64,000 nucleotides of DNA from Amylolactobacillus amylophilus DSM 20533 = JCM 1125 (lineage in GTDB: Bacteria > Bacillota > Bacilli > Lactobacillales > Lactobacillaceae), in NCBI RefSeq assembly GCF_001936335.1, contig NZ_CP018888.1, positions 1-64,000 on the forward strand, written 5' to 3'. The notes beneath the pieces are model-generated. The model had not been told where the DNA came from. It ran no database searches and worked only from the letters and a program-made list of their open reading frames with translations. A program made the position numbers and the translations under genes. This document shows positions 1,555 through 35,931 of the stretch, in pieces. The first letter of the stretch is position 1; each line of letters begins with the position of its first letter.

Positions 1555-1692
1555 CCCTCCATCATGATTATGTCAAGTATACTAATATTTGCCGTTTTCC
1601 TTTTTAAATAATTTTAATATTCTCCTTTTTTAATTATTATAAAACTTCATTTAACATTGTCAACAAAAAGTTAGCTGGTCTTATTTATCTCC

Positions 1693-4035: not shown

Positions 4036-4037
4036 AA

Positions 4038-4775
4038 TTACTCAACTTTCAGAATTTTCTCGTTGATGAAATCAAAGCTTTTGAAGCTGCGGTTAATGGC
4101 AGCACTAATAGTTGAAACCTTTGCTGTACGCCAAAATGCAGTTGAATTAGTCGCACCACCGCGTTCTCCCACCATCAATAATAAAGGTTTTCGCGGTAAG
4201 TTTCTATAAGCTTCGAGCAAAGCAATATCGGCATCGCCGAAATTAGGCGCCCAGGCCAGAATCACGAAATCCGCGACTGTGGCATAGCGAATGAGCGCCT
4301 CGATAGCTGTTAGCCTGGTTACCGGCGCAAAGTTCCTGGCGCCTGTCGCACTAGTTACGCTCCACGACAGGTCATCTGTTGCAACCATGTTAACTCCTAC
4401 ATCTTGAAAGGCTTTCGTCCACTGGGCATTTCCGGCCATTATTTCAAGGCCATCATGCAGATGATATTTCATCGCAATTAATTCCGCCGTGGTCAAGTTT
4501 GGAATCGACCAGAGACCAAATTCTTGCGCGAGGTAATTGCGAAGATTATTCAATAGCTGATTGATCACCTTAATTTCAAGTTCTTTCGTTGGCGCCTGTT
4601 CACACAGTCTCTCCAGCTTGTCCGGCAAAAAGCCGATATCTGCTAGATGCTTTTTGGGAATTCGCTGGTCGCCTAGAATGGTAGTTAACTCGTTAATTTG
4701 ATGCACCTGCTTCGTTACATCTTGTAATCCGATTTCTTGTGCTAACCAGTTTAATTTAGCTAAATATTTCATCAA
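4038..4775 (-). CDS. SAM-dependent methyltransferase-like protein, 245 aa
   Basis: The first ~100 residues are helical. The region around LEIMAGNAQWTKAFQDVG (about 110-127), followed by ATDDLSW, fits a Rossmann-type SAM pocket: a glycine-containing first strand and an acidic residue ending the second strand. A following segment, FVILAWAPNFGD, resembles the substrate/catalytic loop of such enzymes. I recognise the general fold, not a specific substrate. It leads a unit with the permease-like gene and the broken rsmF. Cytoplasmic; no signal sequence. Confidence 0.5.
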   Translation of the reverse strand: MMKYLAKLNWLAQEIGLQDVTKQVHQINELTTILGDQRIPKKHLADIGFLPDKLERLCEQAPTKELEIKVINQLLNNLRNYLAQEFGLWSIPNLTTAELIAMKYHLHDGLEIMAGNAQWTKAFQDVGVNMVATDDLSWSVTSATGARNFAPVTRLTAIEALIRYATVADFVILAWAPNFGDADIALLEAYRNLPRKPLLLMVGERGGATNSTAFWRTAKVSTISAAINRSFKSFDFINEKILKVE

Positions 4776-4856
4776 TCTTCACCTTTGAGAGATTTTAACA
4801 TGCAGAACCGTCAAAATCAGTTATAATATATTGTAATACAAATGAGGAGCTAGCTG

Positions 4857-5438
4857 ATGACAACTAATAAATATGCAAAAGAAAACACCGAGAATGACTC
4901 ACTCTTTAAATGGTTCCTACAAGTCATAGTATTAGCTCTAATATTTCTCGGCGCATATTTTCTTGTATTTAAGTTCGTCCTTTCAAACGAAATTGTCTCT
5001 GGGCCCTCGATGGAGCCAACTTTTAAAGACGGCGATCGCTTGATTGCTAACAGACACCCAACCATTAATCGCTACGACGTTGTAGTACTCGATGCACCAG
5101 ACAGTCCTGGTACATTATACATCAAGCGCGTGATTGGCCTTCCAGGAGATACGATTAGTTCTAAGAACGATGTAACATACATCAACGGTAAAGCAGTCAA
5201 GGAGCCTTACCTTGATGAATACAAGAAAGATTTGCCCGAGGGGCAGCAATTTACAGCAGATTTCAGTTTGCAATCTATCTTTGGCGTAGAGAAAGTTCCG
5301 GCAGATTCCTACTTTGTAATGGGTGATAACAGAAATGTCAGTCGGGACAGCCGGATGATTGGCTTCATCAAAAAATCGGCGATTGAGGGTAAGGTCAAGT
5401 TCAGGTATTTCCCCTTCACTAGAATGCAGTTCTATTAA
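4857..5438 (+). CDS. lepB: Signal peptidase I
   Basis: 193 aa, type I (S26) signal peptidase, which cuts signal peptides from secreted pre-proteins outside the membrane. One N-terminal membrane helix (about residues 18-41) anchors it. The catalytic serine is in GPSMEPT (Ser51) and the general-base lysine in YIKR (Lys90). The conserved GDNR...S.DSR box lies near residues 157-166. The ATG has a strong GAGGAG site 7 bases upstream, and a TATAAT hexamer at 4822-4827 is a plausible -10 element. It is divergently placed from the methyltransferase-like gene. Confidence 0.95.
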   Translation: MTTNKYAKENTENDSLFKWFLQVIVLALIFLGAYFLVFKFVLSNEIVSGPSMEPTFKDGDRLIANRHPTINRYDVVVLDAPDSPGTLYIKRVIGLPGDTISSKNDVTYINGKAVKEPYLDEYKKDLPEGQQFTADFSLQSIFGVEKVPADSYFVMGDNRNVSRDSRMIGFIKKSAIEGKVKFRYFPFTRMQFY

Positions 5439-5494
5439 TTTTATTTTGCAGTGAAAATTGCTAAAATTAATTTATATTAGATGAGGTGATAAAG

Positions 5495-5677
5495 ATGAAT
5501 CCAGATAATTTGTCAGACTTAATTGTTGAGTACCAAAGAAAACATTCAATGAACGATGCAGGATTGGCCTTTGCCAGCCACCTAGCAGTTGAGAAAATTC
5601 ACGGCATGAAGACTGGTGAGGCCGACGCGTCGGAAGCTGAGATTAGTCAGCTACTTGACTTCATTCAACGTAATTAG
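5495..5677 (+). CDS. Small protein of the LBP_cg2779 type, 60 aa
   Basis: A 60-residue acidic protein with a YQRKHSMND...LAFASHLAVEKIHGMK core, matching my recollection of the short LBP_cg2779 family found in lactobacilli. Function unknown. I chose the ATG at 5495 because GAGGTGAT lies just upstream at the right distance; an ATA three codons earlier is unlikely. It lies 56 bases after lepB and may be cotranscribed with it. It ends directly at a strong hairpin shared with the convergent tautomerase gene. Confidence 0.7.
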   Translation: MNPDNLSDLIVEYQRKHSMNDAGLAFASHLAVEKIHGMKTGEADASEAEISQLLDFIQRN

Positions 5678-5722
5678 AAAAGGTTCAAATTTGATTACTA
5701 TTAATCAAGTTTGAACCTTTTT
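5678..5722. terminator. Bidirectional terminator
   Basis: A near-perfect inverted repeat of about 20 bases (AAAGGTTCAAATTTGATTA pairing with its complement at 5702-5721) with a 4-base loop, A-rich on one side and T-rich on the other. It serves both the plus-strand small gene and the minus-strand tautomerase, whose last codons lie inside the stem. Confidence 0.85.
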
Positions 5723-5910
5723 GGTTTATTCAGCGCTTTTGAGCACTCCACCCACACTGTAGTGTTCTTTTTCATCTCGTTTAGAACAATATGGACGTGT
5801 TCTGCGGGTGCACCAGTATTCTTCACGATTGCTGCAGTAACCTCCTCAACCATCTTACTTAGTTGTTCAGCCGAACGTCCTTCAATTAAATCAATGTGTA
5901 CTAGAGGCAT
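5701..5910 (-). CDS. 4-oxalocrotonate tautomerase family protein
   Basis: 69 aa, the usual size of this family. After Met removal the N-terminal proline (MPLVHIDLIEGRS) would be the catalytic base, and the β-α-β layout with a HVHIVLNEM strand is typical. Such proteins catalyse keto-enol tautomerisation; the physiological substrate in lactobacilli is not known. An AGGAGTAGGGATCATG start region supports the ATG. Single gene, convergent with the small protein gene through a shared hairpin. Confidence 0.85.
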   Translation of the reverse strand: MPLVHIDLIEGRSAEQLSKMVEEVTAAIVKNTGAPAEHVHIVLNEMKKNTTVWVECSKALNKPKRFKLD

Positions 5911-5994
5911 GATCCCTACTCCTTTATTATTATTTATTGTCCTATTCTAGCATTTTAGGCAGCTTTTGCCAAAAAACAGCTGGGGTTTATCAAG

Positions 5995-6562
5995 CTAACG
6001 TTTCGCTGCGTCGAAACGCTCTTTCACGGCGAGAATATCTTCTCGTTTTTTTATATCTGCTTTTAAAGTACGCAACTCCTCTTCACGCCGATTCAGTTCG
6101 AGGTTACGTCTCATCATTCGGTTATTTAGCTGTAATTCACGCAAAATCTGTGCCTGTATCTCGTCGCCGGTCAGCGCACCAGCAGCATCCTGCTTCATGA
6201 TGGTCTTTTGCATGGCACGAATAACAATGTAAACGGCGATTGCGGTAATCAAGAAATTGATTAATTGGCTAATAAAATGCCCCCAGCTGATTACTATCTG
6301 GCCTTGCCCCCAAAACGAGCTTCTGGTTAACCAACAGCACAGATTTACCTGTTATTTTCGAAATGATTGGATCGAATAAATCCGTGATGAATGCCTGAAT
6401 CACCTTCGACAGTGCATTACCAACTAGGAAACCAACGGCAAAGTTGACGATATTCCCGGTAGCGAGGAAATCTCGAAAATCGTTGAAGACGTGGACAGAT
6501 TTTTCACCGATTGCACTATCTATCTGTGCTTGCTTCTGATTTTGACTACTTCTTTTTTCCAA
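5995..6562 (-). pseudogene. mscL: Large-conductance mechanosensitive channel, frameshifted
   Basis: The first part holds the first membrane helix of MscL (NIVNFAVGFLVGNALSKVI, and DLFDPIIS). At about 6310 the frame is lost at a run of four G. The second half (SWGHFISQLINFLITAIAV, second helix) continues in another frame to 5995. One single-base indel separates the two. The likely start is TTG at 6562 behind AAAAGGAG. The C-terminal tail is unusually long (about 60 charged, coiled-coil-like residues). Intact MscL opens on hypo-osmotic shock. A sequencing error or a reversible G-tract slip cannot be excluded. Confidence 0.75.
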
Positions 6563-20240: not shown

Positions 20241-21068
20241 ATGAGTGAACAAGTTAACGTTGTCATTATATCAGATTCCGTCGGTGAGACAGGATTTAAA
20301 TTAATGCAAGCGGCATCAGCGCAGTTTCCGAATACAGATTTCACCTTTAATCGTTACCCCTTCATTACGACCATGCAGAAGTTACAGGCTGTCCTGACTG
20401 AGAATCAACATCAAGATAATTTACTAATTGCACACACGTTACTTTCGAAAGAACTAAATGATGAGGTGTTTCGCTTTGGTCGGGCCAACAAAGTCAAGAC
20501 CATTGATTTAATTACCGATGCAATCAATGTGATTGGCAAGCTAACTAACGAGAAGCCAAGCGGTGAGTCTGGTGCAATCCATCACCTGACACAGAAGTAT
20601 TTCGACCGCATCAGCGCCATGGAATTTGCTGTGATGTATGATGATGGGAAAGATCCTAAGGGGTTTCTCAAGGCCGACGTGGTGTTGCTGGGTGTTTCGC
20701 GAACCTCAAAGACCCCCCTATCGTTGTTTCTCGCCAACAAGAATCTAAAGGTCGCAAACTTACCACTTGTACCGCAGGCCCATATACCCGATGAAATTTT
20801 TAAGATTAATCCGACTCAGATCATTGGCCTGACTAACGATCCAGCAGTGCTCAATCGCATTCGACGAGAGCGCATGAAGGCCTACGGTCTGAACCCGGAT
20901 ACGAGTTATTCAAATATGAACGAGATCAATGCTGAACTGAAGTTTGCCCAAGAACTTTACGACAAGCTGGGATGTTACGTCATCAATGTTGCAAACAGAA
21001 GCATCGAGGAAACTGCCGCTCTAATCATGGCGCACCTCGGTATCGATGACTTCAAACAGCAACTCTAA
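20241..21068 (+). CDS. ppsR: Pyruvate, phosphate dikinase regulatory protein (DUF299 kinase/pyrophosphorylase)
   Basis: 275 aa. The N-terminus IISDSVGETG and the phosphate-binding loop LGVSRTSKTPLS near residue 150 mark the DUF299 family, which inactivates PPDK (or PEP synthetase) by ADP-dependent threonine phosphorylation and reactivates it by phosphorolysis. An AAGAGGATAAAGC site precedes the ATG. Monocistronic with a strong terminator; no PPDK gene is in this window. Confidence 0.93.
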   Translation: MSEQVNVVIISDSVGETGFKLMQAASAQFPNTDFTFNRYPFITTMQKLQAVLTENQHQDNLLIAHTLLSKELNDEVFRFGRANKVKTIDLITDAINVIGKLTNEKPSGESGAIHHLTQKYFDRISAMEFAVMYDDGKDPKGFLKADVVLLGVSRTSKTPLSLFLANKNLKVANLPLVPQAHIPDEIFKINPTQIIGLTNDPAVLNRIRRERMKAYGLNPDTSYSNMNEINAELKFAQELYDKLGCYVINVANRSIEETAALIMAHLGIDDFKQQL

Positions 21069-21150
21069 GCAATTCCATCCTGATTTCAGTTAAGCATTAT
21101 TTGGACATGGTATTAACCAAAAAATTAATAGTATGCGTTATTTCAATGCT

Positions 21151-21204
21151 AATTGGCTAGAATGAATTCGGCAATCAACCGGAGTCATTCTAACCAATTT
21201 TTTT
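21151..21204 (+). terminator. Terminator of ppsR
   Basis: TTGGCTAGAATGA pairs with TCATTCTAACCAA across a 23-base loop, followed by seven T. The 370-base gap after ppsR otherwise shows only AT-rich sequence and a short GCCG/CGGC palindrome near 21259 without a T run. Confidence 0.8.
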
Positions 21205-21440
21205 GTTTCCTTTATTCAGAATCATCTAGACCCCAATGCAATACGTTTAATAAAAGAGCCGGAAAATTTCGGCAGGAGCTCAATAACTATTCTCCATAAC
21301 CATACGTTCATCGTGAAAAATACTACATTTATTATAAATTGTTTCCTTTTCTGAAAAAGGTATTATAATAAAATTTAATTAAACAAATTAACGGGGAGTG
21401 TAAAATATCTTGTGTAAACTCGTCTTCGTATGATGAAAGC

Positions 21441-21941
21441 TTGACTCTTAGTCGAACATTGATTCAAGTGTATCTTGGCCATTTTCAACTCGCTATGTTA
21501 TTCCCTCTGACAGGAACCTTAACTCAACTAGTCACAGAACTTGCAAGGCAATTTCTGGTTAACCAAGACGTCAACCTAACGTTAAATAATGATCTTATCT
21601 CTTCGTATTACTTACTTGCAATTCGTTTCGCATCCTCGTCGACTATTTTTATGATGTATTTTATGTTTGTAAATGCAGTATTGATAAATCGTCAGCTAAG
21701 AAAACAATTCTTCCAGCACCATACTGTACAGAACATCATATTTTTGTTACTTTCTTTTTTATTAATCTATACACTACTAACACCCGTTATATACCAAGTT
21801 CCCCTAGAAATGCACGACATTGCCCATTTTATTTGTGTCCTGCTTGGCATTATCGTATCCTCAATTTTGCTACTGATACTTAGAAAAAGAGGTATTCACA
21901 ACCATGAACGGGCCATGGGCAACAATGCGCACGCCTATTAA
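21441..21941 (+). CDS. Small membrane protein of unknown function, uncertain start
   Basis: 166 aa with about four membrane segments (near residues 14-30, 55-75, 95-118 and 126-145) and a short polar tail. No family is recognised. The start is doubtful: the first start-like codon in frame is TTG at 21441 with weak upstream complementarity, whereas a good GGGGAG site at 21393-21398 points to TTG at 21410 in another frame that stops after seven codons. The 5' end may therefore be frameshifted. The frame is open back to about 21390. Confidence 0.45.
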   Translation: MTLSRTLIQVYLGHFQLAMLFPLTGTLTQLVTELARQFLVNQDVNLTLNNDLISSYYLLAIRFASSSTIFMMYFMFVNAVLINRQLRKQFFQHHTVQNIIFLLLSFLLIYTLLTPVIYQVPLEMHDIAHFICVLLGIIVSSILLLILRKRGIHNHERAMGNNAHAY

Positions 21942-22225
21942 AAATACAGAAATCCACATTAATTGAGGCATATTAGGCTTATCAAAAATAATTCAAGAGT
22001 CGTTTCATTGCACCAATCATAATCTTCTTCATTCCTTTGGATGTTGAAGATCTTTTTTTGTTTAAGTACCAAGCTCAGGAGAAGTTACCTGAATAAGCTG
22101 CAAAGTAGCCTTTTTATCCTGCTGCATGAGTCAAAGGCTCCTATAACTATAGTTTCATAGCCAAACTACCAAAAAGTGGTGCAGCCATTCCCGTCGGAAT
22201 GATTACACCACTAATGTTAGTAAGT

Positions 22226-23149
22226 TTATTTGTTTTCTGCCAGTACATGTTCTGCAAGTGCGGGATCAAACGTTTGTTGACGTAACTCACTGATCTCAAA
22301 TTTATATGGTGAATACTTCTTTTTCGGATTCGCAGGATCCACAATTAGCGGCGTCTCCATGATCTTTGGAATCGACTTCAGCTCAGGAAGGTATGCTACA
22401 GTATTCAACAGCTGGAAGCCTAATTCACCATAGCCCAGATTGGCGTGTCTATCTTTGTGCGAATTTAAGCCAAATTTTGAGTCGTTCAAGTGAATTGTTG
22501 AAATTCTGTCCAAGCCCACTATCTGATCAAACTGGGTCAACACACCTGAAAGATCGTTCTTGATATCGTAACCGCCATCGTAGACATGACAGGTGTCAAA
22601 TGTGATGGCCAGACGATCATTGTGGCTAGTCTGTGTGATAATTGAAGCAAGTTCCTCAAATGTCTTACCTACCTCTGTCCCCTTGCCAGCCATGGTTTCA
22701 ATCGCAATTGTGACCTTCTTAGTTGCAGTCTGGCCTAAGATACGGTCAAGCATCTGAGCAATTTGCTTGATGGCTGCTGCACTACCGGCTCCAACGTGTG
22801 CCCCAGGATGGAAACTAATAGTACTTGCGCCAATTGCCTCTGCGCGTTCTAGCTCACCTAAGAGAAACTCTTCGGCAAAACCAAGGGTCTCGGTCTTAAT
22901 CGTATTACCAAGATTGATGATGTAAGGTGCATGCACAACAACCGGTGCAATCTTAGCCTCTTTAAGCAGCGCTTTACCAGCTTCGATATTGAAGGCAGAA
23001 AGCTCCTTCCGCCGAGTATTTTGTGGCGCACCCGTAAAGACCATCATCGTATTTGCACCATTTTGCATAGATTCCTCGGCAGCGCCAACCAGCATCTTTG
23101 TGCCACCCATGCTGACATGACTGCCAATCAGTAAATCAGAATTAATCAA
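22226..23149 (-). CDS. nfo: Endonuclease IV (AP endonuclease)
   Basis: 307 aa TIM-barrel enzyme with a trinuclear zinc site; ligand motifs visible include SFHPGAHVG, AIETMAGKG, ITFDTCHVYDGGYD and HLNDSKFGLNSHKDRHANLG (shown in part). It cleaves DNA at abasic sites in base excision repair. It overlaps the preceding YitT-family gene by 8 bases. About 280 bases downstream hold no convincing gene. Confidence 0.97.
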   Translation of the reverse strand: MINSDLLIGSHVSMGGTKMLVGAAEESMQNGANTMMVFTGAPQNTRRKELSAFNIEAGKALLKEAKIAPVVVHAPYIINLGNTIKTETLGFAEEFLLGELERAEAIGASTISFHPGAHVGAGSAAAIKQIAQMLDRILGQTATKKVTIAIETMAGKGTEVGKTFEELASIITQTSHNDRLAITFDTCHVYDGGYDIKNDLSGVLTQFDQIVGLDRISTIHLNDSKFGLNSHKDRHANLGYGELGFQLLNTVAYLPELKSIPKIMETPLIVDPANPKKKYSPYKFEISELRQQTFDPALAEHVLAENK

Positions 23150-24020
23150 CTTCTACCTCCTTAAATCGTCCAAGAGTTTTGACAGTTTCCGTGATGCTGA
23201 CAAAGGCATACGGGTCGTTTTTACGGATAATCTGTTCGATGTCATAAATCTCATAACGCGCAACAATCGTTATCAGAACAGTCTTTTCCGTGTGACCAAA
23301 CGCACCCTCGGCGTCATGAATAATAGTGATACCACGGTGCATTCGCGCCTGAATACTATCAATGATTTTCCGCGATTGACTAGTCACAATGAGTACCTGC
23401 ATCCGTTGGTGCTGTGTGTAGATCATGTCGATCACTCGACCGTTGACAAAGATACTGATGGCGGTGTATAACGCATGAATCCAGCCAAACGTGACACCAG
23501 CAAGTGCAACAATCACTAGGTTAACCGCAATATTAATTGTGCCGAAACTTCTCCCGGTTTTTTTACGGAGGATAATCCCGGCGATATCGAGTCCACCAGT
23601 AGAGATCCCACTCTTCAGCGCAATCCCAGTACCAGCACCGTTAATGAGTCCACCAAAAAGTGCGCACAAAATCGGATCAAACTTGATCGTTAGCGGTGGA
23701 ATCAGGTGCATCATAATCGAGCCCAGGAGTACCGCAATCATTGAAAACATCGTGAACCGATGCCCAATCTTAAACCACCCGAGGAAGAATAACGGAATAT
23801 TCAACACAAAGTACATAATTGAGGTGGAGAGGACAAACGGAAAATACCGTTCAGTGAGGGTTTGCACCACTTGCGCAAATCCCGTCACCCCACTCGCATA
23901 AATGCCCCCCGGATGCCAGAAAAAGTTCAAAGCAATCGCCACCGCAATTGAATAGAAGAAGGCGGCGGTGACTTTAGAGATTAAATTGTGTTGGCGCGAC
24001 ATCTGTGTCAAATGATCCAT
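23142..24020 (-). CDS. YitT family membrane protein (DUF161/DUF2179)
   Basis: 292 aa. Five or six membrane helices in the first 180 residues, including the repeated GG...G.G.....G motifs (ASGVTGFAQVV, GGLINGAGTGIALKSG), then a cytoplasmic DUF2179 domain from about residue 205 to 285. The family is widespread in Firmicutes; transport substrate unknown. The start is the ATG at 24020 with AGGAAG upstream. Confidence 0.9.
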   Translation of the reverse strand: MDHLTQMSRQHNLISKVTAAFFYSIAVAIALNFFWHPGGIYASGVTGFAQVVQTLTERYFPFVLSTSIMYFVLNIPLFFLGWFKIGHRFTMFSMIAVLLGSIMMHLIPPLTIKFDPILCALFGGLINGAGTGIALKSGISTGGLDIAGIILRKKTGRSFGTINIAVNLVIVALAGVTFGWIHALYTAISIFVNGRVIDMIYTQHQRMQVLIVTSQSRKIIDSIQARMHRGITIIHDAEGAFGHTEKTVLITIVARYEIYDIEQIIRKNDPYAFVSITETVKTLGRFKEVEVD

Positions 24021-24080: not shown

Positions 24081-24623
24081 TTATTTATGCCAATGTTTTT
24101 TGATAAATTCACTGCGGCCACCGGCCTCTTCTAGCGCATATCTAGTAGGATCCTTCTTGTAGAAGTCCTGGTGATACTCTTCTGCTTCATAGAAAGGCTT
24201 CGCAGGTTCAATTGTGGTCACAATCGGATCATCAAAGCGATTACTTTCGTCCAGTTGTTGCTTTGATTGTTCAGCGATTTGTTCCTGCTCAGTCGAATTG
24301 TAGAAAATAACTGGGCGGTACGAATCACCACGGTCTTGGAATTGGCCACCCGCATCTGTTGGATCAGTCACCTGCCAATAAAGTTCCACGAGTTCAGCGT
24401 AACTTATTTTGCTTTTGTCAAAAGTAATCTTTACGGCTTCTGTGTGCCCAGTTGTGTGCGAACACACTTGCTCATATGTTGGGTTTGGCACATGTCCACC
24501 AGTGTAACCAGAACGTACTGAAACTATTCCCTCGTGTTGGTCAAAGGGCTCGACCATACACCAGAAACAACCTCCTGCAAAAATAGCTGTATCAATATTA
24601 GAATTTTTCAGTTGCTCTGTCAT
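24081..24623 (-). CDS. msrA: Peptide methionine (S)-S-oxide reductase
   Basis: 180 aa. The catalytic cysteine lies in [13 protein letters not shown] (about residue 19), the usual position. Reduces the S epimer of methionine sulfoxide in proteins. It overlaps msrB by one base, so both stereoisomers are handled by one operon. Confidence 0.97.
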
Positions 24624-25066
24624 TATTCATTTCCCCTATCAAAAAGTTCGAGATAATCACCATAACCTGCCGCCGTAAGTTGCTCAACCGGGATAAAGCG
24701 TAGTGCAGCAGAATTAATGCAGTAACGTAGGCCACCACGGTCCTCCGGGCCATCTGTGAACACGTGACCTAGATGCGAGTCAGCTTCTTTACTACGCACC
24801 TCCGTCCGTTCTTGCATTAATTTTGTATCACGCTTCTCAGTTAACTTTACAATTGGTTTCGTGAATGAGGGCCAACCACAACCGGCATCATATTTATCCG
24901 TTGAGGAGAACAACGGCTCACCGCTGACCACATCAACGAAGATTCCGTCTTGCCAGAAATCATCGTATTCACCACTAAAAGGCATCTCTGTTGCAGCGTT
25001 TTGGGTGACCTCGAATTGCTCCTTTGTCAGTCTTTCCTTTAAATCTGCTTGATCTTTGTGCATCAT
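24623..25066 (-). CDS. msrB: Peptide methionine (R)-S-oxide reductase
   Basis: 147 aa. DAGCGWPSF and the catalytic-cysteine motif [11 protein letters not shown] near residue 118 identify MsrB; the zinc-binding CxxC pairs are absent, as in many Firmicute forms. First gene of msrB-msrA. Confidence 0.97.
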
Positions 25067-25178
25067 CTGACCTCACTTTTCTGCTTGAACATCTTATTGT
25101 TCATGATTGTATGTTTAATTATAGTTGTTTACAAGTAATTTGCGAATAAACAGTTCGGTAAATTCCGTTATTTAAAAA

Positions 25179-25212
25179 TAAAATAAAAAAGCAAGACTAA
25201 TCCTGCTTTTCC
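25179..25212 (-). terminator. Terminator of hisS-aspS
   Basis: On the minus strand AAAGCAGGA...TCTTGCTTTTTTATTTT forms a short hairpin with a T run, overlapping the last aspS codons. Confidence 0.75.
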
Positions 25213-26963
25213 ACCTCTAAACCGAGCTCATCTAGTTGTTTAGCATCAACGGGTGCTGGGGCCTGCATCATAGGCTCACTTGCCTTTGAGTTCTTCGGAA
25301 ATGCGATTACATCACGAATGTTTTTCCGATCCGCCAGAAGCATGGCAAATCGATCGAGTCCGATTGCCAAACCGCCAATTGGTGGGAAGCCGTAGTCAAG
25401 CGCCTCTAAGAGGAACCCAAATTGCTCTTCGGCCTGCTCCTGCGTAAATCCTAACGCATGCAACATTTTCTCCTGGATCTCTCTTGTGTGTATTCTGATT
25501 GATCCACCACCAAGTTCGTAGCCGTCTAAGACGATATCATAACTTCTCGCGTGGGCCGCGTGGGGGTCACTATCAAGCAACTTCACACCGGCATCGTCCG
25601 GCATTGTAAATGGATGGTGGGCCGCAGTCCAGCGCTCATCACCCTCATCGTATTCGAAGAGCGGCCAATCAACTACCCAAGTGAATGCAAATTGAGATTC
25701 ATCAATCAGGTTAAATTCCTTAGCGAGAGCAGTTCGGAGATAACCAAGGCTGTCAGCAACCACCTTAGCACGATCTGCCACGAACAGTACCAAATCGTCG
25801 TCCGTGACGTTTAATTTATCGGCCAACAAAGGCAACTCATTTGGTAGGAATTTGGTAATTGGCCCGCTAAATTCGCCATTAGTAAACTTCAACCAAGCGA
25901 GACCTTTTGCACCAAAGCGTTTGATGTAATCTTGTTTTGTATCAATTTGCTTCCTGGAATACTGAGCAGCAGCGCCCGGAACCACAATGGCCTTAACCTG
26001 ACCACCATTAGCAACGGTACCAGAGAATACCTTGAAATCACTATTCTTAACTAAGGCGGAGACATCTTGTAACTCCATCCCAAACCGTAAATCCGGCTTG
26101 TCGGAACCAAAGCGGTCCATCGCTTCCTGCCAAGTTAGCCGCGGAAACGGTAGCTGCACATCAACACCCATGACGTCATGCATCACTTTTTGAAGCAGTC
26201 CCTCAGTCAGAGTTTGAATCTGTTCCTCATCGAGGAAACTAGTCTCTAAATCAATCTGGGTGAATTCTGGTTGCCGGTCGCCACGTAGATCCTCATCACG
26301 GAAGCAACGGGCAATTTGATAATAGCGGTCGAAACCAGCACCCATCAGTAATTGTTTAAACAGTTGAGGTGATTGGGGCAACGCGTAGAAGCTGCCCGGA
26401 TAAATGCGAGATGGCACCAGATAGTCGCGCGCACCTTCTGGGGTTGATTTACCCAAGATTGGTGTTTCAATGTCGATGAATCCTTGCTCATCAAGATACT
26501 GATGCGTTGCTTGCATAATCTTTGCTCTTTTGATGATTGCTGCCTGCATCTCTGGCCGACGTAGATCTAAGTAACGGTACTTTAACTTAGTTTCCTCCGT
26601 TGCTGTCGTGTCATCCTTCACATCAAATGGCGGTGTTTTAGACTTATTGAGCAGCTCAAGTTCAGAGACCTCTACTTCAATCTGGCCCGTCTTCATCTGG
26701 TCATTGACTGCGCCCTGACCCCGCTTTACAACCCGTCCGTGAACCGTAATCACGTCTTCGGCACGCAAAGACTCTGCACTAGTAAGTAGCGCGGTCCCAC
26801 TTGCCTGGCTCACAACCAGCTGGACGATGCCCTCGCGGTCCCGCAAGTCAATGAAAACCAGATTACCTAAGCTGCGGGCCTTTTGAACCCAACCGTATAA
26901 CACAACGTCTTGATTCAGATATTCTTCTGTGATTAGGCCACAATAATTTGTTCGTTGATCCAT
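25197..26963 (-). CDS. aspS: Aspartyl-tRNA synthetase
   Basis: 588 aa, bacterial type. N-terminal OB-fold anticodon-binding domain, class II core with [13 protein letters not shown] and [19 protein letters not shown] (motif 2), a GAD insert domain, and GIGLDR-type motif 3 ([13 protein letters not shown]). Charges tRNA-Asp (possibly also tRNA-Asn). Cotranscribed with hisS under one T-box leader. Confidence 0.98.
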
Positions 26964-26980
26964 TATTTTCAGTATCTCCT

Positions 26981-28267
26981 CTAATTAAATTGTCTCAAGA
27001 CATTTTGTAAGTCTGTTTCTATCTGGTCAAAAGTGGTCGCGACTTGCTTGCCGTCTGTCAACCTTTTCACTGCAACCGACTTCGTAGCAATCTCTTCATC
27101 ACCCAACGTGATGACATATTGGGCATTTGCCCGAGTAGCTGCCTTAAATTGAGCCTTCAATTTACGTTGCTCCACGTCGTATTCCGCGCTAAAGCCTGCA
27201 CTTCTAATACTTTCTGTTAACTTAATTGTTGGTACAATTGTGTCGTCGCCAACATTTGCAATAAAGAAATCAATTCCTGATTCCGCGAACAATTGTGGAT
27301 TCTGGACGTTCAAGACTAAGAGAAGGCGTTCAAGGCCAATACCAAAACCGACAGCCGGCGTCTGCGGACCCGAAAATTCCGCGACGAGATCGTCGTAACG
27401 ACCCCCACCAAGAATAGTAGACTTGCTGTGCCAGAGCTCTTGATCGTCAACCATGAATTCGAAGATCGTACCGGTATAGTAGTCAAGTCCCCGGACCAAA
27501 TCATCGTCTAGTTCATAATTTACGCCAAGTTGTGTCAGAGTATCAGTAATTAGATTAAAGTTGGCTTTTGATTCATCGTCCAGATAGTCAATAATTTTCG
27601 GTGCATCTGGAAGAAATTGTTGATCTGCCTCATCTTTAGAATCGAGAATCCTCAAAGGATTCGTCGTGAGGCGGCGTTTTGAATCCGCGCTGAGTGAGTC
27701 AACGAGCGGTGTGAAGTAGGCAACTAGGGCATCATGGTACTTTGCCCGCACATATTTCGTACCTAAGCTATTGATGTGTAATTCGTAATTTTTCACGCCG
27801 AGAGTCTGCAACAGCTTGTAACCAAGCATGACAACCTCAATATCCTGCAGAGCGTTACTTGAACCGAATGATTCCACACCGATTTGGTGGAACTGCCGTT
27901 GACGTCCCGCCTGGGGACGCTCATAACGAAACATCGGTTCGATGTAGAAAAGCTTATATGGCTTCGCGTATTCTGGTCCATACAATTTATTTTCAACAAA
28001 CGAACGCACAACGCCAGCTGTACCCTCGGGACGTAGGGCTAGCCTTCTATTCCCCTTATCCAAGAAATCGTACATTTCCTTCTGGACGACATCACTCTCT
28101 TCACCACTTGAGCGCGCGAAGAGCTCGTAGTTCTCGAAGATTGGGGTGCGAATCTCCTGATAATTAGCTTTTTGGAAAAAGTTCCGGGTAATCTCCTCCA
28201 CCTTCTGCCATTGTCTGACAGTCTGGGGTAGAATATCTACGGTTCCCTTTGGTTTTTGTAATTTCAT
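26981..28267 (-). CDS. hisS: Histidyl-tRNA synthetase
   Basis: 428 aa. Class II motifs include [10 protein letters not shown] and [16 protein letters not shown] (motif 2), then the His-specific [13 protein letters not shown] and GGGRYDDL, and a C-terminal anticodon domain. First gene of hisS-aspS; start ATG at 28267 behind GGAGGAG. Confidence 0.98.
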
Positions 28268-28279
28268 TTAATCTCCTCC

Positions 28280-28475
28280 AAAATAAAAAGCACCCTTGAT
28301 TAATTCATCAAGGGCGCATTCCTACGCGGTACCACCTTAGTAATTGCTACGAATAACGCTCGCCAAACGGTTTAATCTCAAAAGTTGTCACGAGCGTTTC
28401 AATAGCTTTACACCGACCAGCTACTCTCTGTCTTTTTTGCTCTCAGTCTTTCTCATTGATTAATTACTTAATTGG
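28280..28475 (-). promoter_or_regulatory. T-box leader of hisS-aspS
   Basis: The T-box AAGGTGGTACCGCG lies at 28325-28338 on the minus strand, followed by the terminator stem GCACCCTTGAT and its complement with a T run (28284-28316). Upstream, AGAGAG and GGTGTAAA mark the distal part of stem I; downstream of these, GTGACAACTTT places GAC (Asp) at 28387-28389 in the position where the glyQ leader has GGC. No CAC or CAT fits that spot. Confidence 0.92.
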
Positions 28476-28480
28476 TATCT

Positions 28481-28509
28481 AGAATACTTAATTGAACAGG
28501 CCTTGTCAA
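28481..28509 (-). promoter_or_regulatory. Sigma-A promoter of hisS-aspS
   Basis: On the minus strand, TTGACA at 28504-28509 and TATTCT at 28481-28486 separated by 17 bases, just before the T-box leader. Confidence 0.8.
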
Positions 28510-28549
28510 TACTCATTCGGTGTTAAACCGAAATTTCATACCGAAGCAC

Positions 28550-29346
28550 CTAAAATTCGTTATTTTGAACAGTTAAATTATTTCGGCCCCGGGCCTTTGA
28601 CCGGTAAAGCATTTGATCAGCACGCTCATATAAATCCTCCGGGCTATAATCTGCTAGGCTGGTCTGTGCGACGCCAATGGAAATAGTGACGATTAATTCC
28701 TCACCATCCACGGAGGTAAAGGTCATCTTATTCAGACTTTCCTTCAACTTTTCTGCAGCACATGTTGCCTCTTCTAAGCTACAATTCGGCAGAACAATAT
28801 TAATTTCATCACCGCCAACACGGTAGCTTTTGGCACTCTTGAAATAACCTGCTCCATCACGGTACTAGCCTCCGCTAACCGCGGTTACCTGTAAAGTGGC
28901 CAAAGCCGTCATTCAGATTTTTGAAGTGATCAATATCGAGGGCAATCATCAAGAGTGGCTCTTTTGTCTTCTGCCAATGCTTAAAATTGTTCGCTAATTG
29001 TTCAACAAATGAACCGTAGTTATTTAAGCTGGTCAACCAATCGGTGTTTGCCTGCTGTAAAATGGTGTCCACATAAATATCCTCTGCATTAAATTGTGAG
29101 AGCATGAAGTAGACGAGTCCATCGAGGATAATTAAAGAGCTAGAATAGAAAAGAGCTTCGCTCAAGCTAATCATTCCCATTCCGGGCACAACACCATTTT
29201 TGAAAGTGGCTAAGAAATAGAAGATACAAAAAAGAATCAATGCACTTGCATGGAGCACAATCGTGCTGACCTTTTGTTTTCTAATTAATATCACCATGAT
29301 GCCTAAAAACAGTTGAACAACAATGAAAATGGCAACGACAGGAATA
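28550..29346 (-). pseudogene. Membrane-anchored GGDEF (diguanylate cyclase) remnant
   Basis: About three membrane segments (IPVVAIFIVVQLFLG and following) lead into the GGDEF-domain opening ANTDWLTSLNNYGSF and MIALDIDHFKNLNDGFGH. The frame is then lost: EASTVMEQ, SYRVGGDEINIVLP and the C-terminal SIGVAQTS...YERADQMLYRSK lie in different frames, needing at least two frameshifts around 28790-28880. The active-site motif reads GGDEI. The upstream part is fused in frame to a flavoprotein fragment. A working enzyme would make c-di-GMP; this one cannot. Confidence 0.8.
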
Positions 29347-30371
29347 GTAAGTCCCGTGTTTGCCAGTGTATAGTCAAAGAAACGTAGTGCAGTTTTTCCT
29401 TGTTTGCCAGGAAACTTCTGCACGTGGCCAAACACGTTTCTACCCGCAATGTAACCTTGCTTCACGGCGTTCGATGCTAACGGAATATACATATCTTGTT
29501 TTAGTGGATTATAAGTGATTGCCGCTGAATCACCGGCGGCTAAAATGTCCGGTTCAGAGGTCTCAAGCCATTCGTTCGTCAACAGCGCACCAGTTTTGTC
29601 CATCTCGACCTTACCAAACAATAATTCAGTATTTGCCAAGAAGCCAGTGCAGACAATTACTAGATCTGCGGTAATCTGCCCTTGCGCGGTATTAATGAGT
29701 ACCTGCTTGGTCCCATTTACACTGCCAAAGGAGTTTTAACCCGATGACCTAAGCGAACGTCTACCCCATGTTGTTGCAGTGTTTCTACGATTTTAAGCGA
29801 CATGTCTGCGTCTACGTAGTTATTAAGCAATTGCTTATTACCCTGAATTAGCGTTACTTGGTGGTCTGTGTTGGCATAGGCCTCGGCCAGTTCAATCCCA
29901 ATAAAGCAGCCACCTACAATCGCGATATGCTGGTTGTCTTTCGCGCTATTATAGATTGCTTTTGCCTGCTTATAACCATACACAATAGCACCTTATCGTT
30001 ATCTATGCCCGTTAAAGGAGGTACCTGAACATAAGAACCCGTGCTCATAATCAACTTATCGTAAGTATCTGTCACAACCTTTTTGGTGCTCATGTCTTGC
30101 ACGAGTATGGATTTTTCTTTTGGATTGATCTTTAAAACGTCGTGCATAGTCTTGACTTTTGCGCCAATACTTGCCAGATGCTCCGGTGTTTCGTAGAACA
30201 TATCCTCAAGTTTGTCGACGACTCCCTCTAAGTATAAAGAGATACCACACGACAGAAAAGAAACGTTGTCATTTCGTTCATAAATAGTTAATCAGTGTCT
30301 GGATGATTCGTTATAATTTCTTTCGCGGTTGAAACACCAGCGTGTGTGCAGCCAACTATTACTAACTTCAT
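29347..30371 (-). pseudogene. NADH oxidase/peroxidase-like flavoprotein remnant
   Basis: Starts MKLVIVGCTHAGVSTAKEI (FAD-binding strand), then in other frames SFLSCGISLYL (redox-active Cys), IAIVGGCFIGIELAEAY (NADH-binding), and DILAAGDSAAI...PLASNAVKQG, the second FAD motif. Frameshifts are needed near 30288, 29985 and 29735. The expected C-terminal dimerisation domain is missing: after FFDYTLANTGLT, near 29347, the frame runs straight into the membrane part of the GGDEF gene, as if a deletion joined the two. Confidence 0.8.
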
Positions 30372-30392
30372 CTTATTCCCCTTTTCTTTTAC

Positions 30393-31007
30393 TTAATTAT
30401 CCGGGTCATCATCAAGTAGCTTCAAAATATGTGGCTTACCATAATAGTACCCTTGTCTTAACGTGATATTCATTTTATTCAACAGTTGATCTTCTTCCTC
30501 ACTCTCAATACCTTCAAGGATAAATCTTAGGTTGTTCTTCTGTGCTAAGTCCCGCAAGAAAACTATTTTGTCTTGAATTTCCTGGTCAAAAACTGACTCT
30601 TCAAAGTTTTGTAGCGCAAATTTCAGTTCACTCAAGTAAGGCATGAATCTGTCGACGTTATCCAGCTGGTTCAAGCCAGTGCCAACGTCATCAAGCGAGA
30701 GTTCAATGCCCCGTAACTGATAGTTAACTAGTGCTTGTTGTAAATCTTCAAAGTTAATTTCAACAGGATTATCCTCCTCAGTAAGCTCCACGACGAGTTT
30801 TAGGGGGCGCAACAGATTTTGTACATAGATAAGCGCTTCATTAATCTCTGACGTTAATAGCTGCTGCCGGTTCAGATTAACGGACACGTAACCCACCTTC
30901 AAGGCCAGTTTCTGCATACTGCCAATTAGAATACTAGCAATTGTCTTGGCTGGAATCTTACTGAAGTCTGCTAGCGGGCGCCATCCATCAGCTGTGTTAA
31001 CCTTCAT
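30393..31007 (-). pseudogene. Truncated EAL-domain (c-di-GMP phosphodiesterase-like) protein
   Basis: 204 codons. Conserved EAL-domain residues are present: VNLNRQQL, VVELTEED, LSLDDVGTGLNQL, ELKF, FILEGIESEEE and RQGYYYGKP. The first strand with the EAL signature itself is missing; upstream, GYKLLMKV continues in frame for about 17 codons and then meets a TAA, with no start site. Lacking the EAL glutamate, hydrolysis of c-di-GMP is unlikely, though binding is conceivable. It lies just upstream of the flavoprotein/GGDEF remnants and probably belonged with them. Confidence 0.7.
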
Positions 31008-31080
31008 TAAAAGCTTATAGCCAACAGATGTTATTTTTCCGCTTTTTGATGATTATTTTTTCAGCAGTTTTGATTGCTAC

Positions 31081-31108
31081 AAAAAAACAACCGAAATGGT
31101 TGCCTTAT
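31081..31108 (-). terminator. Terminator of the relA-dtd unit
   Basis: On the minus strand GCAACCATTTCGGTTG is followed by seven T, 35 bases after the dtd stop. Confidence 0.85.
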
Positions 31109-31142
31109 TCTCATGGTCCTAGAAAAACTAATAATTATTTAT

Positions 31143-31589
31143 TTAACTAACCCGTTCCTCAAATATAATCGTCACCGGTCCGTCGTTGTGCAGGTTAACC
31201 TGCATATCCGCGCCAAATTCACCGGTTTGAACCAAAAGACCGTTGGCACGCAATCGGTCATTGAATTGCTCAAATAGCGGTTCTGCAAGCTCGGGCCGCA
31301 TTGCTTGTGTGAAACTCGGCCGGTTACCATGGCTCGTGTCCGCCAGTAGCGTGAATTGACTGACAGAGAGAATCTGGCCAGCCACATCCGCTAACGCTAG
31401 GTTCATCTTGTCATTTTGGTCACTGAAAACACGGAGTTTCGTGATTTTGTCAGCAAATTTATGTGCTAAGGATAGTGTATCCCCCTGCTCGATTCCGACG
31501 AGTAGTAGAAAACCCTTACCTATCCGGGCGATTTGATTCTGGGCGACCGTGACGCTAGCTTCTGTAACGCGTTGAACTACAATTCTCAT
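31143..31589 (-). CDS. dtd: D-aminoacyl-tRNA deacylase
   Basis: 148 aa. The family signatures SQFTLLADTSHGNRPSF and the C-terminal NDGPVTI (cross-subunit GP motif) are clear. Removes D-amino acids and glycine wrongly attached to tRNA. Overlaps the upstream (p)ppGpp synthetase gene by one base, a common Firmicute pairing. Confidence 0.97.
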   Translation of the reverse strand: MRIVVQRVTEASVTVAQNQIARIGKGFLLLVGIEQGDTLSLAHKFADKITKLRVFSDQNDKMNLALADVAGQILSVSQFTLLADTSHGNRPSFTQAMRPELAEPLFEQFNDRLRANGLLVQTGEFGADMQVNLHNDGPVTIIFEERVS

Positions 31590-33862
31590 TAGCTATCAGA
31601 CCTCTTCGCTTCATAGACATTTGGCACATCTTTAATCCTCGCCAGGATTTCCTCTAAGTGTAAGGCGTTTTTCACTGCTACTGTGACATAGATGTGTGCC
31701 ATGTTGTTGTTATCAACTTTACCAGTGATACTTGCCAGGTTCTTAGACTGTGAATTCAAAGTTTGGAGAATATCATTCAGCAAACCATTACGGTTGAAGC
31801 CATAGATTTCAATGTCGGCGTTATAATTCTGCTCTTTTGCAGCATCATTCACATTCTCCCAGGCAACATCAATCAACCGACCATTAGTCCTGTCTTCCTC
31901 TTTGATATTCTTACAATCATTACGGTGGATGGTCACACCGCGCCCACGCGTGACGTAACCCACAATGTCGTCACCAGGTAATGGATTACAACACTTAGCC
32001 AAACGGATCAAGAGGTTACCAACGCCTTGGATCATGATGCCGTTGTCGTGTTTGATCTTCATTGGATCTGAAGACTTCTGCCTGTCGTTTTTATTCTTCT
32101 TCTGGGCCTTCTTCGGTTCCTGTTTTTGGTCGGGCTCAGAGGTGTTGGTAAGAATAGCCTGCTCCATCGACTTTTGTTTGTCAGATTGCCGTTTGCGCCG
32201 TTCCTTCTCTGTCAGCTTATTAGCCACCACCAGTGCGGTAACTTCACCATAACCAATTGCACTAAACAATTCGCTCTCAGTACTAAAGTTAAATTTCATC
32301 AGCGCAATCTGCATGTGTTCTTTGTCCATGTAATTCTTAGGTAAAAAGCCTAGATCACTTAGCTGATTCTCAAGGGCAGCAACGCCTTTCTCAACGTTCT
32401 CGTCCTTTTCCTCGCTCTTAAAGAAACGCTTAATTTTATTGCGGGCGCGACTTGTCTTGACGATATTAATCCAATCTCGGCTAGGACGGGCATTACTCTG
32501 AGTCAACATCTCGACGATATCACCGTTTTTTAGTTGGTAGGTCAACGGTACAATCTTCCCGTTGACGCGCGCACCAACCGAGTGACTTCCGACCTCGGTG
32601 TGGACTAGATAGGCAAAATCCAGGGGAATCGAACCCTTTGGCAGCTCGTACACATCGCCAGCTGGCGTGAAGACATAAACGCGATCCGAGAAGATGTCTC
32701 CTTTCACGCTCTCCATGAATTCGTGCGCATCAGTACTCTCGTCTTTAATCTCCAGGATCTCCCGGAAGATATCAATCTTTTTGCCGGCTTCATCGAGCTT
32801 AACGGGATTCTTGACTCCTTCTTTATACGCCCAGTGGGCGGCAATACCATACTCGGCAACCTCATGCATCTGTTCGGTCCGAATCTGAATTTCTAGTGGC
32901 TTAGCGCCGGGTCCAATAATCGTTGTGTGCAGTGACTGATACCCGTTCGCCTTAGGCACCGCAATGTAATCCTTGAACCTACCAGGCATTGGCTTCCATT
33001 TAGTGTGGACTGCGCCCAAAACCGCGTAGCAATCCTTGACCGTCTCGACGAGGACTCGAATAGCAAGCAAGTCATATAATTCATTGAACTGCTTGTGTTT
33101 GTCCTTCATTTTTTTATAAATTGAGTAGATGTGCTTGGGCCGCCCGTATATTTCGTACTTAATACCGAGCTCGTCCAGCGTAGCGGTGATTACATCGACA
33201 GCGTCTGCGATATAACGTTCACGCTCGTCACGCTTAGACTTCATCAAATTAACTATCCGGTAATATTGTTGGGGATTGATATAGTGGAGACTCAAATCCT
33301 CCAGCTCCCACTTGATCATACTGATACCTAAGCGGTCGGCTAGTGGTGCATATATTTCCAGTGTTTCATCAGCGATTCTACGCTGCTTATCTGGACGCAG
33401 GTGGTCCAGCGTGCGCATGTTATGCAGACGATCAGCCAGTTTAACCATGATTACCCGCAAGTCTTGCGCCATTGCGATGAGCATTTTGCGGTGATTCTCA
33501 GCTAGTTGTTCCTCATGTGATTTGTACTTAATTTTACCCAGCTTAGTCACACCATCAACGATAGCGGCAACGTCTTTCCCAAATAATTCTGACACGTCAC
33601 CCAGTGTAATATTGGTGTCCTCGACCACATCGTGGAGATAGCCGCTAGCAACTGTCTCTGGATCCATCTTCAGTTCCGCCAAAATACCGGCAACTTGAAT
33701 AGGGTGAATGATATAAGGTTGACCCGATTTCCTAATCTGGTCGTGATGCACGTATGAGGCGAACTCGTAAGCCCTCTGGACGAAAGCTAGGTGCTCGTCA
33801 TTCATATAAAGACGACAAAGTTCAATGACGTCTTCTTGCGTTAGTTCTTTTGGTTTCGCCAT
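31589..33862 (-). CDS. relA: Bifunctional (p)ppGpp synthetase/hydrolase (RSH)
   Basis: 757 aa. The N-terminal HD hydrolase domain has HPIQVAG and GYLHDVVEDT; the synthetase domain has YEIYGRPKHIYSIYKKM and ANGYQSLHT; TGS (VFTPAGDVYELPKGS) and a C-terminal ACT domain follow. Both active sites look complete, so this is the long Rel enzyme that controls the stringent response. Cotranscribed with dtd. Confidence 0.97.
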   Translation of the reverse strand: MAKPKELTQEDVIELCRLYMNDEHLAFVQRAYEFASYVHHDQIRKSGQPYIIHPIQVAGILAELKMDPETVASGYLHDVVEDTNITLGDVSELFGKDVAAIVDGVTKLGKIKYKSHEEQLAENHRKMLIAMAQDLRVIMVKLADRLHNMRTLDHLRPDKQRRIADETLEIYAPLADRLGISMIKWELEDLSLHYINPQQYYRIVNLMKSKRDERERYIADAVDVITATLDELGIKYEIYGRPKHIYSIYKKMKDKHKQFNELYDLLAIRVLVETVKDCYAVLGAVHTKWKPMPGRFKDYIAVPKANGYQSLHTTIIGPGAKPLEIQIRTEQMHEVAEYGIAAHWAYKEGVKNPVKLDEAGKKIDIFREILEIKDESTDAHEFMESVKGDIFSDRVYVFTPAGDVYELPKGSIPLDFAYLVHTEVGSHSVGARVNGKIVPLTYQLKNGDIVEMLTQSNARPSRDWINIVKTSRARNKIKRFFKSEEKDENVEKGVAALENQLSDLGFLPKNYMDKEHMQIALMKFNFSTESELFSAIGYGEVTALVVANKLTEKERRKRQSDKQKSMEQAILTNTSEPDQKQEPKKAQKKNKNDRQKSSDPMKIKHDNGIMIQGVGNLLIRLAKCCNPLPGDDIVGYVTRGRGVTIHRNDCKNIKEEDRTNGRLIDVAWENVNDAAKEQNYNADIEIYGFNRNGLLNDILQTLNSQSKNLASITGKVDNNNMAHIYVTVAVKNALHLEEILARIKDVPNVYEAKRSDS

Positions 33863-33879
33863 TTTAAATTTGTCCCCTT

Positions 33880-34212
33880 TTAACGATAATTATTATGGTG
33901 ATTATAGCCCAATACGGAAAGCACCAGGTAAATTAAGCCGAAGAAATAATTATAATCTGCATAACGAATCAAGACCGTGACTGAAAATACTACCGGCCAA
34001 AACAGCAACCAGAAAATATTCAATCTCTGTTTTTTGACCCAATAACCAATGAAGTAAGAGATTAAAAAGTTAAGCGCAATAAAAATCCAGCCCACTCGAA
34101 GCGGTACCTTAAGTCCAAATAATCCCATAACTAGTGCAAATAGGACCGAGAACAAAGAAAGATATACAATTACGGCTGTTTTTGACTGCAAAATATGTTT
34201 CATAGTTTGCAT
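33880..34212 (-). CDS. Small membrane protein, 110 aa
   Basis: Four predicted membrane helices (about residues 13-33, 41-59, 66-82 and 86-101) with a short basic loop VKKQR. No family recognised. It sits 3 bases after rsmE and 17 bases before the Rel gene, so it is probably cotranscribed with prmA-rsmE and Rel. An internal ATG (34203) is an alternative start. Confidence 0.65.
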   Translation of the reverse strand: MQTMKHILQSKTAVIVYLSLFSVLFALVMGLFGLKVPLRVGWIFIALNFLISYFIGYWVKKQRLNIFWLLFWPVVFSVTVLIRYADYNYFFGLIYLVLSVLGYNHHNNYR

Positions 34213-34215
34213 CGA

Positions 34216-34959
34216 TTAACTCATCTCCAATTGATATGATAAGGCGCTCAAGAAGTATAATGGGGCAGTTTCAACGCGTAGAATCCTATTACCAAGCGCA
34301 GCGGCTTTAAATTGCTTGCTTTCGAGGAAGCCAATTTCCAGAGGCGAAATACCCCCCTCAGGCCCGAACACCATGATGATTCTCTGGCTCGGCCTAAGTG
34401 CGGTCAGAGCCTCGCGTAGAGCGGAGTGTTCGTGTTGCTTCGCAGCTTCTTCATAGGCAATCAATCTCGTATCGTAGTCGGTAAAGCTCAACTCGGACAG
34501 CTTATCGATTAATCTAACTGTTGGAATATTCTCACGGCGAGACTGCTCTGCTGCCTGTTGTGCTATCTTCTGGTAACGACTTAATTTTTTATCTATCTTA
34601 TCACTTTTGATGCGTGAAATTGAGTAGTCTGCATTAAAAAAGATGATATGTTGCACGCCCATCTCTGTGGCTTTCTGAATAATAAACTCATTTTTGTCGC
34701 CCTTACTAGTACCAACCACAATCGTGGAACTTACTGGTAACTCCGGATTAAGTACCGCTTCCCGGACAACCTTCACGAGCACCTCATTACCCTTTAGTGC
34801 CATAATCACTGCCACGTAGGCATTGTGCTCGGCATCAACTAGTTCAATCTCGTCACTGACTTGGCTCCGGCGTACCTTAACGATTCTGTGGGCAATCTCA
34901 CCGTCCAGAATAATCTGGTCATTAATCGAAGCCGTTTTTTCGATAAAATAATGCTGCAT
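34216..34959 (-). CDS. rsmE: 16S rRNA m3U1498 methyltransferase
   Basis: About 247 aa, SPOUT superfamily. The C-terminal knot shows IIMVFGPEGGISPLEI and LGNRILRVETAPLYFLS. Start taken as the ATG at 34959 (MQHYFIEK) with AGGAG 8 bases upstream; a GTG three codons earlier is possible. It follows prmA, a conserved pair. Confidence 0.96.
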   Translation of the reverse strand: MQHYFIEKTASINDQIILDGEIAHRIVKVRRSQVSDEIELVDAEHNAYVAVIMALKGNEVLVKVVREAVLNPELPVSSTIVVGTSKGDKNEFIIQKATEMGVQHIIFFNADYSISRIKSDKIDKKLSRYQKIAQQAAEQSRRENIPTVRLIDKLSELSFTDYDTRLIAYEEAAKQHEHSALREALTALRPSQRIIMVFGPEGGISPLEIGFLESKQFKAAALGNRILRVETAPLYFLSALSYQLEMS

Positions 34960-34986
34960 CTCAGCCACTCCTTTATAAAAAATAAC

Positions 34987-35931
34987 CTAATCTTGCTGGC
35001 GTTCTATCAGTAAGGCAACCCAACGCTCTTGTTGGACCCGAATTGTAATCGAGAAACCATGTAGCCTCAGTGCTTCCTCTAATTTAGGCAACTGATCTTG
35101 ATCAATGCCTGACATGATTACTCGACCTGTTGCTGCTAGGTGTTCCGCTAACTGCTCGGTTAACGGGAGCAACACCTCGGTCAGAATATTAGCGACAATC
35201 AAATCGAATTGCCCAGAGACATTGTTTAGTAGGTCACTTTGAACTAATGCTATTTTACTACTATTATTCAATCCAATATTCTCTTTTGCGGCGGTCATTG
35301 CTTGTTCATCGATGTCTGTCGCTATCACTTGGTCTGCACCTAACTTCTCAGCAGCTATACTGAGAATGCCCGAACCCGTCCCTACGTCTAGGACCCGTTG
35401 GCGCGCTCTTAAGGCCTTTTCAATGAGTAAAAGCGCCAGCTGCGTGGTAATATGAGTCCCTGTGCCAAAGGAAAGCCCCGGATCAAGTATGATAGTCTGC
35501 TCGTCGGGCAATACTGGCGTGTAGTCCAGCCATTTAGGTACAATCGTGAGGTTTCTGGTCACGTGCACCACGTGATAATATTGTTTCCAGCTCTCGCTCC
35601 AATCCGTGTCTGCAACCACCTGTTGCGTAATTTGACGTGTACCCGTTTGGAGACCATAAGACGCTAACTCTGCTAACTTAGCCTGAACCAGAAGCTGCAG
35701 CTTGTGGGCATCCTCTGTAGCATTAAAATAGCCAGTGACCTCGATGTCTTCTGGCAAAGCTGCAACAGAAGCCAAATCAATAGTCTCACCGTGGCTTCTG
35801 TTTGGTACGGCAATAAAGTCACTGCGCCGTCTAACCTCCACCCCTTGAGCTAATAACTCGTTGGTAAGATACTCCGTTAGAGCTTCCTCGGCTTCTTGTG
35901 CGGTAGCGATAGTTAGTTGTAATAATTTCAT
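34987..35931 (-). CDS. prmA: Ribosomal protein L11 methyltransferase
   Basis: 314 aa. The SAM motif DVGTGSGILSIAAEKLGA near residue 180 and the VANILTEVLLPL motif near 248 are typical of PrmA, which trimethylates L11. First gene of prmA-rsmE; ATG preceded by AGGAG. Confidence 0.97.
   Translation of the reverse strand: MKLLQLTIATAQEAEEALTEYLTNELLAQGVEVRRRSDFIAVPNRSHGETIDLASVAALPEDIEVTGYFNATEDAHKLQLLVQAKLAELASYGLQTGTRQITQQVVADTDWSESWKQYYHVVHVTRNLTIVPKWLDYTPVLPDEQTIILDPGLSFGTGTHITTQLALLLIEKALRARQRVLDVGTGSGILSIAAEKLGADQVIATDIDEQAMTAAKENIGLNNSSKIALVQSDLLNNVSGQFDLIVANILTEVLLPLTEQLAEHLAATGRVIMSGIDQDQLPKLEEALRLHGFSITIRVQQERWVALLIERQQD

Follow-up and report, generated by a model that had tools for sequence, protein, structure and literature searches.

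The junction at which a flavoprotein reading frame runs into a membrane GGDEF reading frame is very probably the scar of a deletion between two neighbouring, now broken genes, and not a new hybrid sensor. It lies in the window, the whole stretch of 64,000 nucleotides analysed here, which opens contig NZ_CP018888.1 of Amylolactobacillus amylophilus DSM 20533. The locus contains the following features, all on the minus strand and listed in the direction of reading:

30393 to 31025, minus strand: remnant of a stand-alone EAL gene (Pfam EAL, E value of 2.6e-19), with its N-terminal residues and start region gone
29343 to 30371, minus strand: remnant of the gene for an NADH-oxidase-like flavoprotein (NOX), lying in three frames and recognized by tblastn, by pieces of Pfam Pyr_redox_2, and by a profile
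28878 to 29735, minus strand: 286-codon open frame across the join, measured from stop to stop, with a 254-codon open reading frame (ORF) inside it
29342 to 29343, minus strand: the join, at which two profiles abut; 29343 is the last NOX-homologous base and 29342 the first base homologous to the GGDEF protein
28550 to 29342, minus strand: remnant of the gene for a membrane GGDEF protein, comprising the last membrane helices and the GGDEF domain (profile, Pfam, and tblastn)

As the sequence-only reading had described, a single uninterrupted frame of 254 codons leads from the NADH-oxidase-like FAD region into the membrane GGDEF protein. In the list of ORFs it occupies positions 28875 to 29639 of the minus strand and starts from the TTG codon at 29639. 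Pfam finds in this same frame the last part of Pyr_redox_2 (profile positions 240 to 291 of 291), followed by the beginning of GGDEF (positions 1 to 56 of 161). The enclosing stop-to-stop frame of 286 codons is the longest open frame between 28550 and 31007. Since it exceeds the 220 codons that 300 dinucleotide-shuffled versions of the locus reached at most (mean, 107 codons), its openness reflects inherited coding sequence and not chance.

The join was positioned with profiles of the NOX and GGDEF proteins, built from 12 side-by-side gene pairs of relatives in which both genes are whole. The NOX profile matches over positions 217 to 346 of 456, ending at residue 131 of the fused frame (base 29343), and the GGDEF-protein profile matches over positions 124 to 275 of 385, beginning at residue 132 (base 29342), so that zero residues remain between the two matches. 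The join, previously put near 29347, thus shifts by 4 to 5 bases. The absence of the flavoprotein dimerisation domain at this point, also noted earlier, is borne out: the last 110 of the 456 NOX positions are gone, including most of this domain, which Pfam places at residues 334 to 427 of the NOX protein from genome G033. A loss on the other side, which had escaped that reading, has removed the first 123 or so of the 385 positions of the GGDEF protein, which belong to its N-terminal membrane part. In the 12 whole pairs, the gap between NOX and GGDEF genes ranges from −4 to 124 bases; adding these gaps to the missing positions gives an expected deletion of approximately 698 to 826 bases. The genome has five matches to the dimerisation domain, all of them far from the locus, and therefore no relocated end of the NOX gene is found nearby.

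Small lesions are found on either side of the join. Comparison of the NOX proteins of seven relatives with the locus by tblastn reveals three frame changes in the NOX remnant, near 30291, 29977, and 29725. In the GGDEF remnant, Pfam and tblastn show one frame change near 28881 to 28903, which splits the GGDEF domain over two frames. (In these searches, the NOX query from G022 lacked its 80 leading residues, and the GGDEF protein of G021 was cut to 160.) The EAL protein of a relative aligns to the EAL remnant only from residue 15 to 17 onward. The signature motifs have changed as well: the GGDEF motif reads GGDEI, as opposed to GGEEF in all 12 relatives compared, and the signature Glu residue of the EAL motif, conserved in 50 of 50 relatives, is replaced here by Lys. 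Since the frame changes both before the join and within the GGDEF domain, the locus does not hold a start-to-stop gene that combines a sensor with a GGDEF domain.

In the relatives, the two joined genes are separate. With an intact GGDEF protein as the query (E value of at most 1e-12), 159 out of 350 family genomes gave matches, and the top match was examined in each of the 30 best, which include G033, the genome that supplied the query. A separate NOX gene lies immediately upstream on the same strand in 14 of these 30 loci, and in one further locus it is 1.2 kb away. Two of the 14 loci, those of G169 and G105, each have one gene split and were left out of the profiles. The EAL gene adjoins NOX in 13 of the 14, the remaining locus (G192) being truncated by the end of its contig. 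All three genes follow one another on one strand, as in the window, in G014, G022, G067, G072, G081, G111, and G125; in others, EAL is divergent. Among the matches listed, the best 26 (E values below 1e-69) correspond to frames no longer than 411 codons, as befits a stand-alone GGDEF protein.

The genes flanking the cluster in the window, which by eye from their translations we take to be hisS, aspS, dtd, and rel, have no counterparts next to the EAL, NOX, or GGDEF genes in 38 relative loci (L041 was left out), so the chromosomal place is not common to these loci. In a second genome of the same genus, 65% complete, neither the region nor the neighbouring hisS-like protein found a match. The stretch from 28280 to 28480, which precedes the hisS-like gene, resembles by eye a T-box leader on the minus strand; an Rfam scan of positions 28200 to 31200 had no hit at the gathering threshold.

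The gene order in relatives, the homology boundaries, and the lesions lead us to infer a single deletion. The ancestor would have had three adjacent genes, coding for the EAL protein, NOX, and the membrane GGDEF protein, an arrangement that several relatives retain. The deletion, some 0.70 to 0.83 kb long, would have taken away the end of the NOX gene, the short gap between the genes, and the initial third of the GGDEF gene. After a random deletion, two open remainders share a frame one time in three, and it is by this one-in-three chance that the remainders of NOX and GGDEF would have been left in a single frame. Small frame changes and the loss of the EAL start would also have broken the cluster. 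Such a deletion explains at once why two internally cut genes abut, why the relatives have separate genes, and why decay surrounds the join. As the undeleted locus was not seen in close relatives, it is deduced from members of other genera, whose matched pieces share 24 to 62% identity with the locus in tblastn.

Of the two possibilities raised by the sequence-only reading, the in-frame fusion of two neighbours by a deletion is supported: relatives have these as two separate genes, arranged as in the window, and both are truncated at the join. Two separate genes with complete ends in relatives, which had been named as the mark of a mere deletion scar, are what the relatives display. The other possibility, a redox-input diguanylate cyclase made as a single protein, finds no support, as none of 39 relative loci read for this purpose contains a NOX-GGDEF fusion. 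Nor does anything point to use of the joined frame, whose state suggests that it is unused: its upstream part is not intact, the NOX dimerisation domain is missing, and the GGDEF domain is frame-broken. The shared frame in itself neither proves nor excludes transient expression of a hybrid.

It is very unlikely that the lineage once had a fused membrane GGDEF cyclase with a flavoprotein sensor, which has since decayed. In favour of such a history, the frame is open across the join, and the adjoining positions of the NOX and GGDEF genes in relatives make a functional link between them plausible. However, the ORFs of at least 60 codons read in the 39 relative loci include no NOX-GGDEF or NOX-EAL fusion, and the five longer GGDEF proteins in these loci (598 to 624 codons) have no NOX part. 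The same holds for the only frames long enough for a hybrid among the matches listed from the 350 genomes, five frames of 616 to 639 codons on four contigs. When named genomes were scanned with the fused frame, a single distant match was returned, confined to the flavoprotein portion (L035; 38% identical across query residues 3 to 100). In addition, the join discards both the NOX dimerisation domain and some 123 residues of the membrane part, so that a hybrid would require a fusion that lost parts of both proteins, unseen in the relatives examined, and then decayed.

The quality of the assembly also bears on the join. The end of the contig, positions 1577294 to 1610352, repeats window positions 1 to 35968. 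The end copy has no mismatches to the window, but shows 25 one-base gap positions and lacks window positions 20874 to 23783, a 2.9-kb difference. The one-base gaps are located near the contig ends, within window positions 1 to 6307 and 33109 to 35638. This repeat reads as the untrimmed overlap of a circular chromosome; a true duplication was considered and rejected because of this overlap-like arrangement. Both kinds of error are thus present in the assembly, and any single frame change could be one of them, given the small indels between the overlapping ends. That the join and all the frame changes are sequencing or assembly errors in an intact EAL-NOX-GGDEF cluster is nevertheless scarcely credible, since the two copies are identical over 28400 to 31700, lesions and join included, their small differences are confined to regions near the contig ends, and the long flanking ORFs within 24081 to 28267 and 31143 to 35931 are open. 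The agreement of the copies is not fully independent evidence, as they may share reads; together with the open flanking ORFs, it indicates that the lesions are probably real.

Apart from the contig-end copy of the same stretch, this locus is the only one in the genome with GGDEF or EAL matches at an E value of 0.001. Thus, judging from domain searches, the synthesis and breakdown of c-di-GMP by these enzyme classes appear to have been lost. The scar itself carries little weight; it points to a complete loss of c-di-GMP metabolism as genes decayed in a small genome, and cautions against taking in-frame joins between dead genes for hybrid proteins. More weight attaches to the strongly conserved neighbourhood of EAL and NOX, often with GGDEF, which offers a testable hypothesis on what the c-di-GMP enzymes of this family sense.

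The EAL protein of G033, compared with the 350 family genomes (E value of at most 1e-25), has matches in 121 of them. A NOX gene is found within 1.5 kb in all 30 of the best EAL loci (L125 to L154, counting G033 itself) and within about 2.6 kb in 18 of 20 second-tier loci (L155 to L174, the exceptions being L157 and L170). The second-tier loci were picked by hand from the matches listed; without three that were already known to lie near NOX (G102, G004 near 2,166,000, and G016 contig 23), the count is 15 of 17. Combined, a stand-alone EAL gene is found near NOX in 48 of 50 loci, of which 20 were hand-picked. The two genes are not always direct neighbours, as a 155-codon ORF separates EAL from NOX in G004, and they may be co-directional, divergent, or convergent, depending on the genome. 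In 11 loci with EAL proteins below 40% identity to the query, no NOX gene was found within the stretch read. Of the 20 second-tier loci, only 3 contain a GGDEF gene, which makes EAL the constant partner of NOX. The number of NOX-like genes per genome in the family is small (at most 11 matches to the fused frame of the window, with GGDEF matches included), and by a rough estimate NOX would be close to EAL by chance in some 1 to 2% of loci.

The EAL proteins involved look like a subfamily proper to this family, at least in a sample of 295 genomes from across the order. At an E value of 1e-20 or less, matches were found in 17 of these genomes, 13 from this family, including the window's own, and 4 from outside it, none of the latter better than 1.8e-26. 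All 50 relatives retain the residues E, N, E, D, D, K, E, E, and Q at nine positions described in the EAL literature as metal binding or catalytic, and they are accordingly predicted to be c-di-GMP phosphodiesterases. In the KID motif, all 50 have Ala in place of Asp.

The window may hold a dead copy of a family-wide module that combines a phosphodiesterase of this EAL subfamily with an NADH-oxidase-like flavoprotein and, often, a membrane GGDEF cyclase, and in which the state of oxygen or NADH would set the level of c-di-GMP. We consider this a tentative proposal, somewhat short of an even chance. The flavoprotein could inform the c-di-GMP enzymes of the oxygen or NADH state, or could be co-regulated with them; the persistence of the EAL-NOX linkage through changes of orientation favours a working protein partnership over just a shared promoter. 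A literature search, limited for subscription journals, found no title or opening of an abstract that deals with a partnership of EAL or GGDEF proteins with NADH oxidase.

The intact NOX protein of G033 resembles the solved structure 5er0 (E value of 3.4e-155 over residues 3 to 449 of 458) and belongs with the NADH oxidase, NADH peroxidase, and CoA-disulfide reductase group, represented by the structures 5er0/5vn0 and 2cdu; the best-matching structures are from lactobacilli and, along with the gene content, suggest Lactobacillaceae as the taxon. Unlike the members of this group, the window copy is frame-broken and has no dimerisation domain. The FLSCG motif is found in 11 of the 12 profiled NOX relatives and reads FLSSG in G014; the interrupted NOX of G021 has a different sequence at this position. 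With 413.5 and 401.1 bits, respectively, the intact NOX proteins of G033 and G014 fall below the 600-bit cut-off of NCBIfam NF046103 for the H2O-forming NADH oxidase, and they are also under the NCBIfam cut-off for CoA-disulfide reductase, so these scores do not fix the substrate. A second NADH-oxidase-like gene of the window's own genome, at contig positions 924842 to 925861 (L045, L087), is also interrupted, by one TGA and one TAA codon in the matched frame; its ORF has only 282 codons, with no match to the dimerisation domain.

In the window cluster, as in the DgcA and PdeA pair of Lactobacillus acidophilus (PMC6123363), a stand-alone EAL protein is encoded next to a membrane GGDEF protein whose N-terminal part has several helices. 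In contrast to that pair, the window cluster has a NOX gene between EAL and GGDEF; the words NADH and oxidoreductase are absent from the main text of the paper on DgcA and PdeA.

The cluster is interrupted in other genomes, too. NOX and EAL are split in G105 (L092), as is the GGDEF gene in G169 (L088) and NOX in G021 (L039). These broken clusters hint at repeated loss, or at errors in draft sequences.
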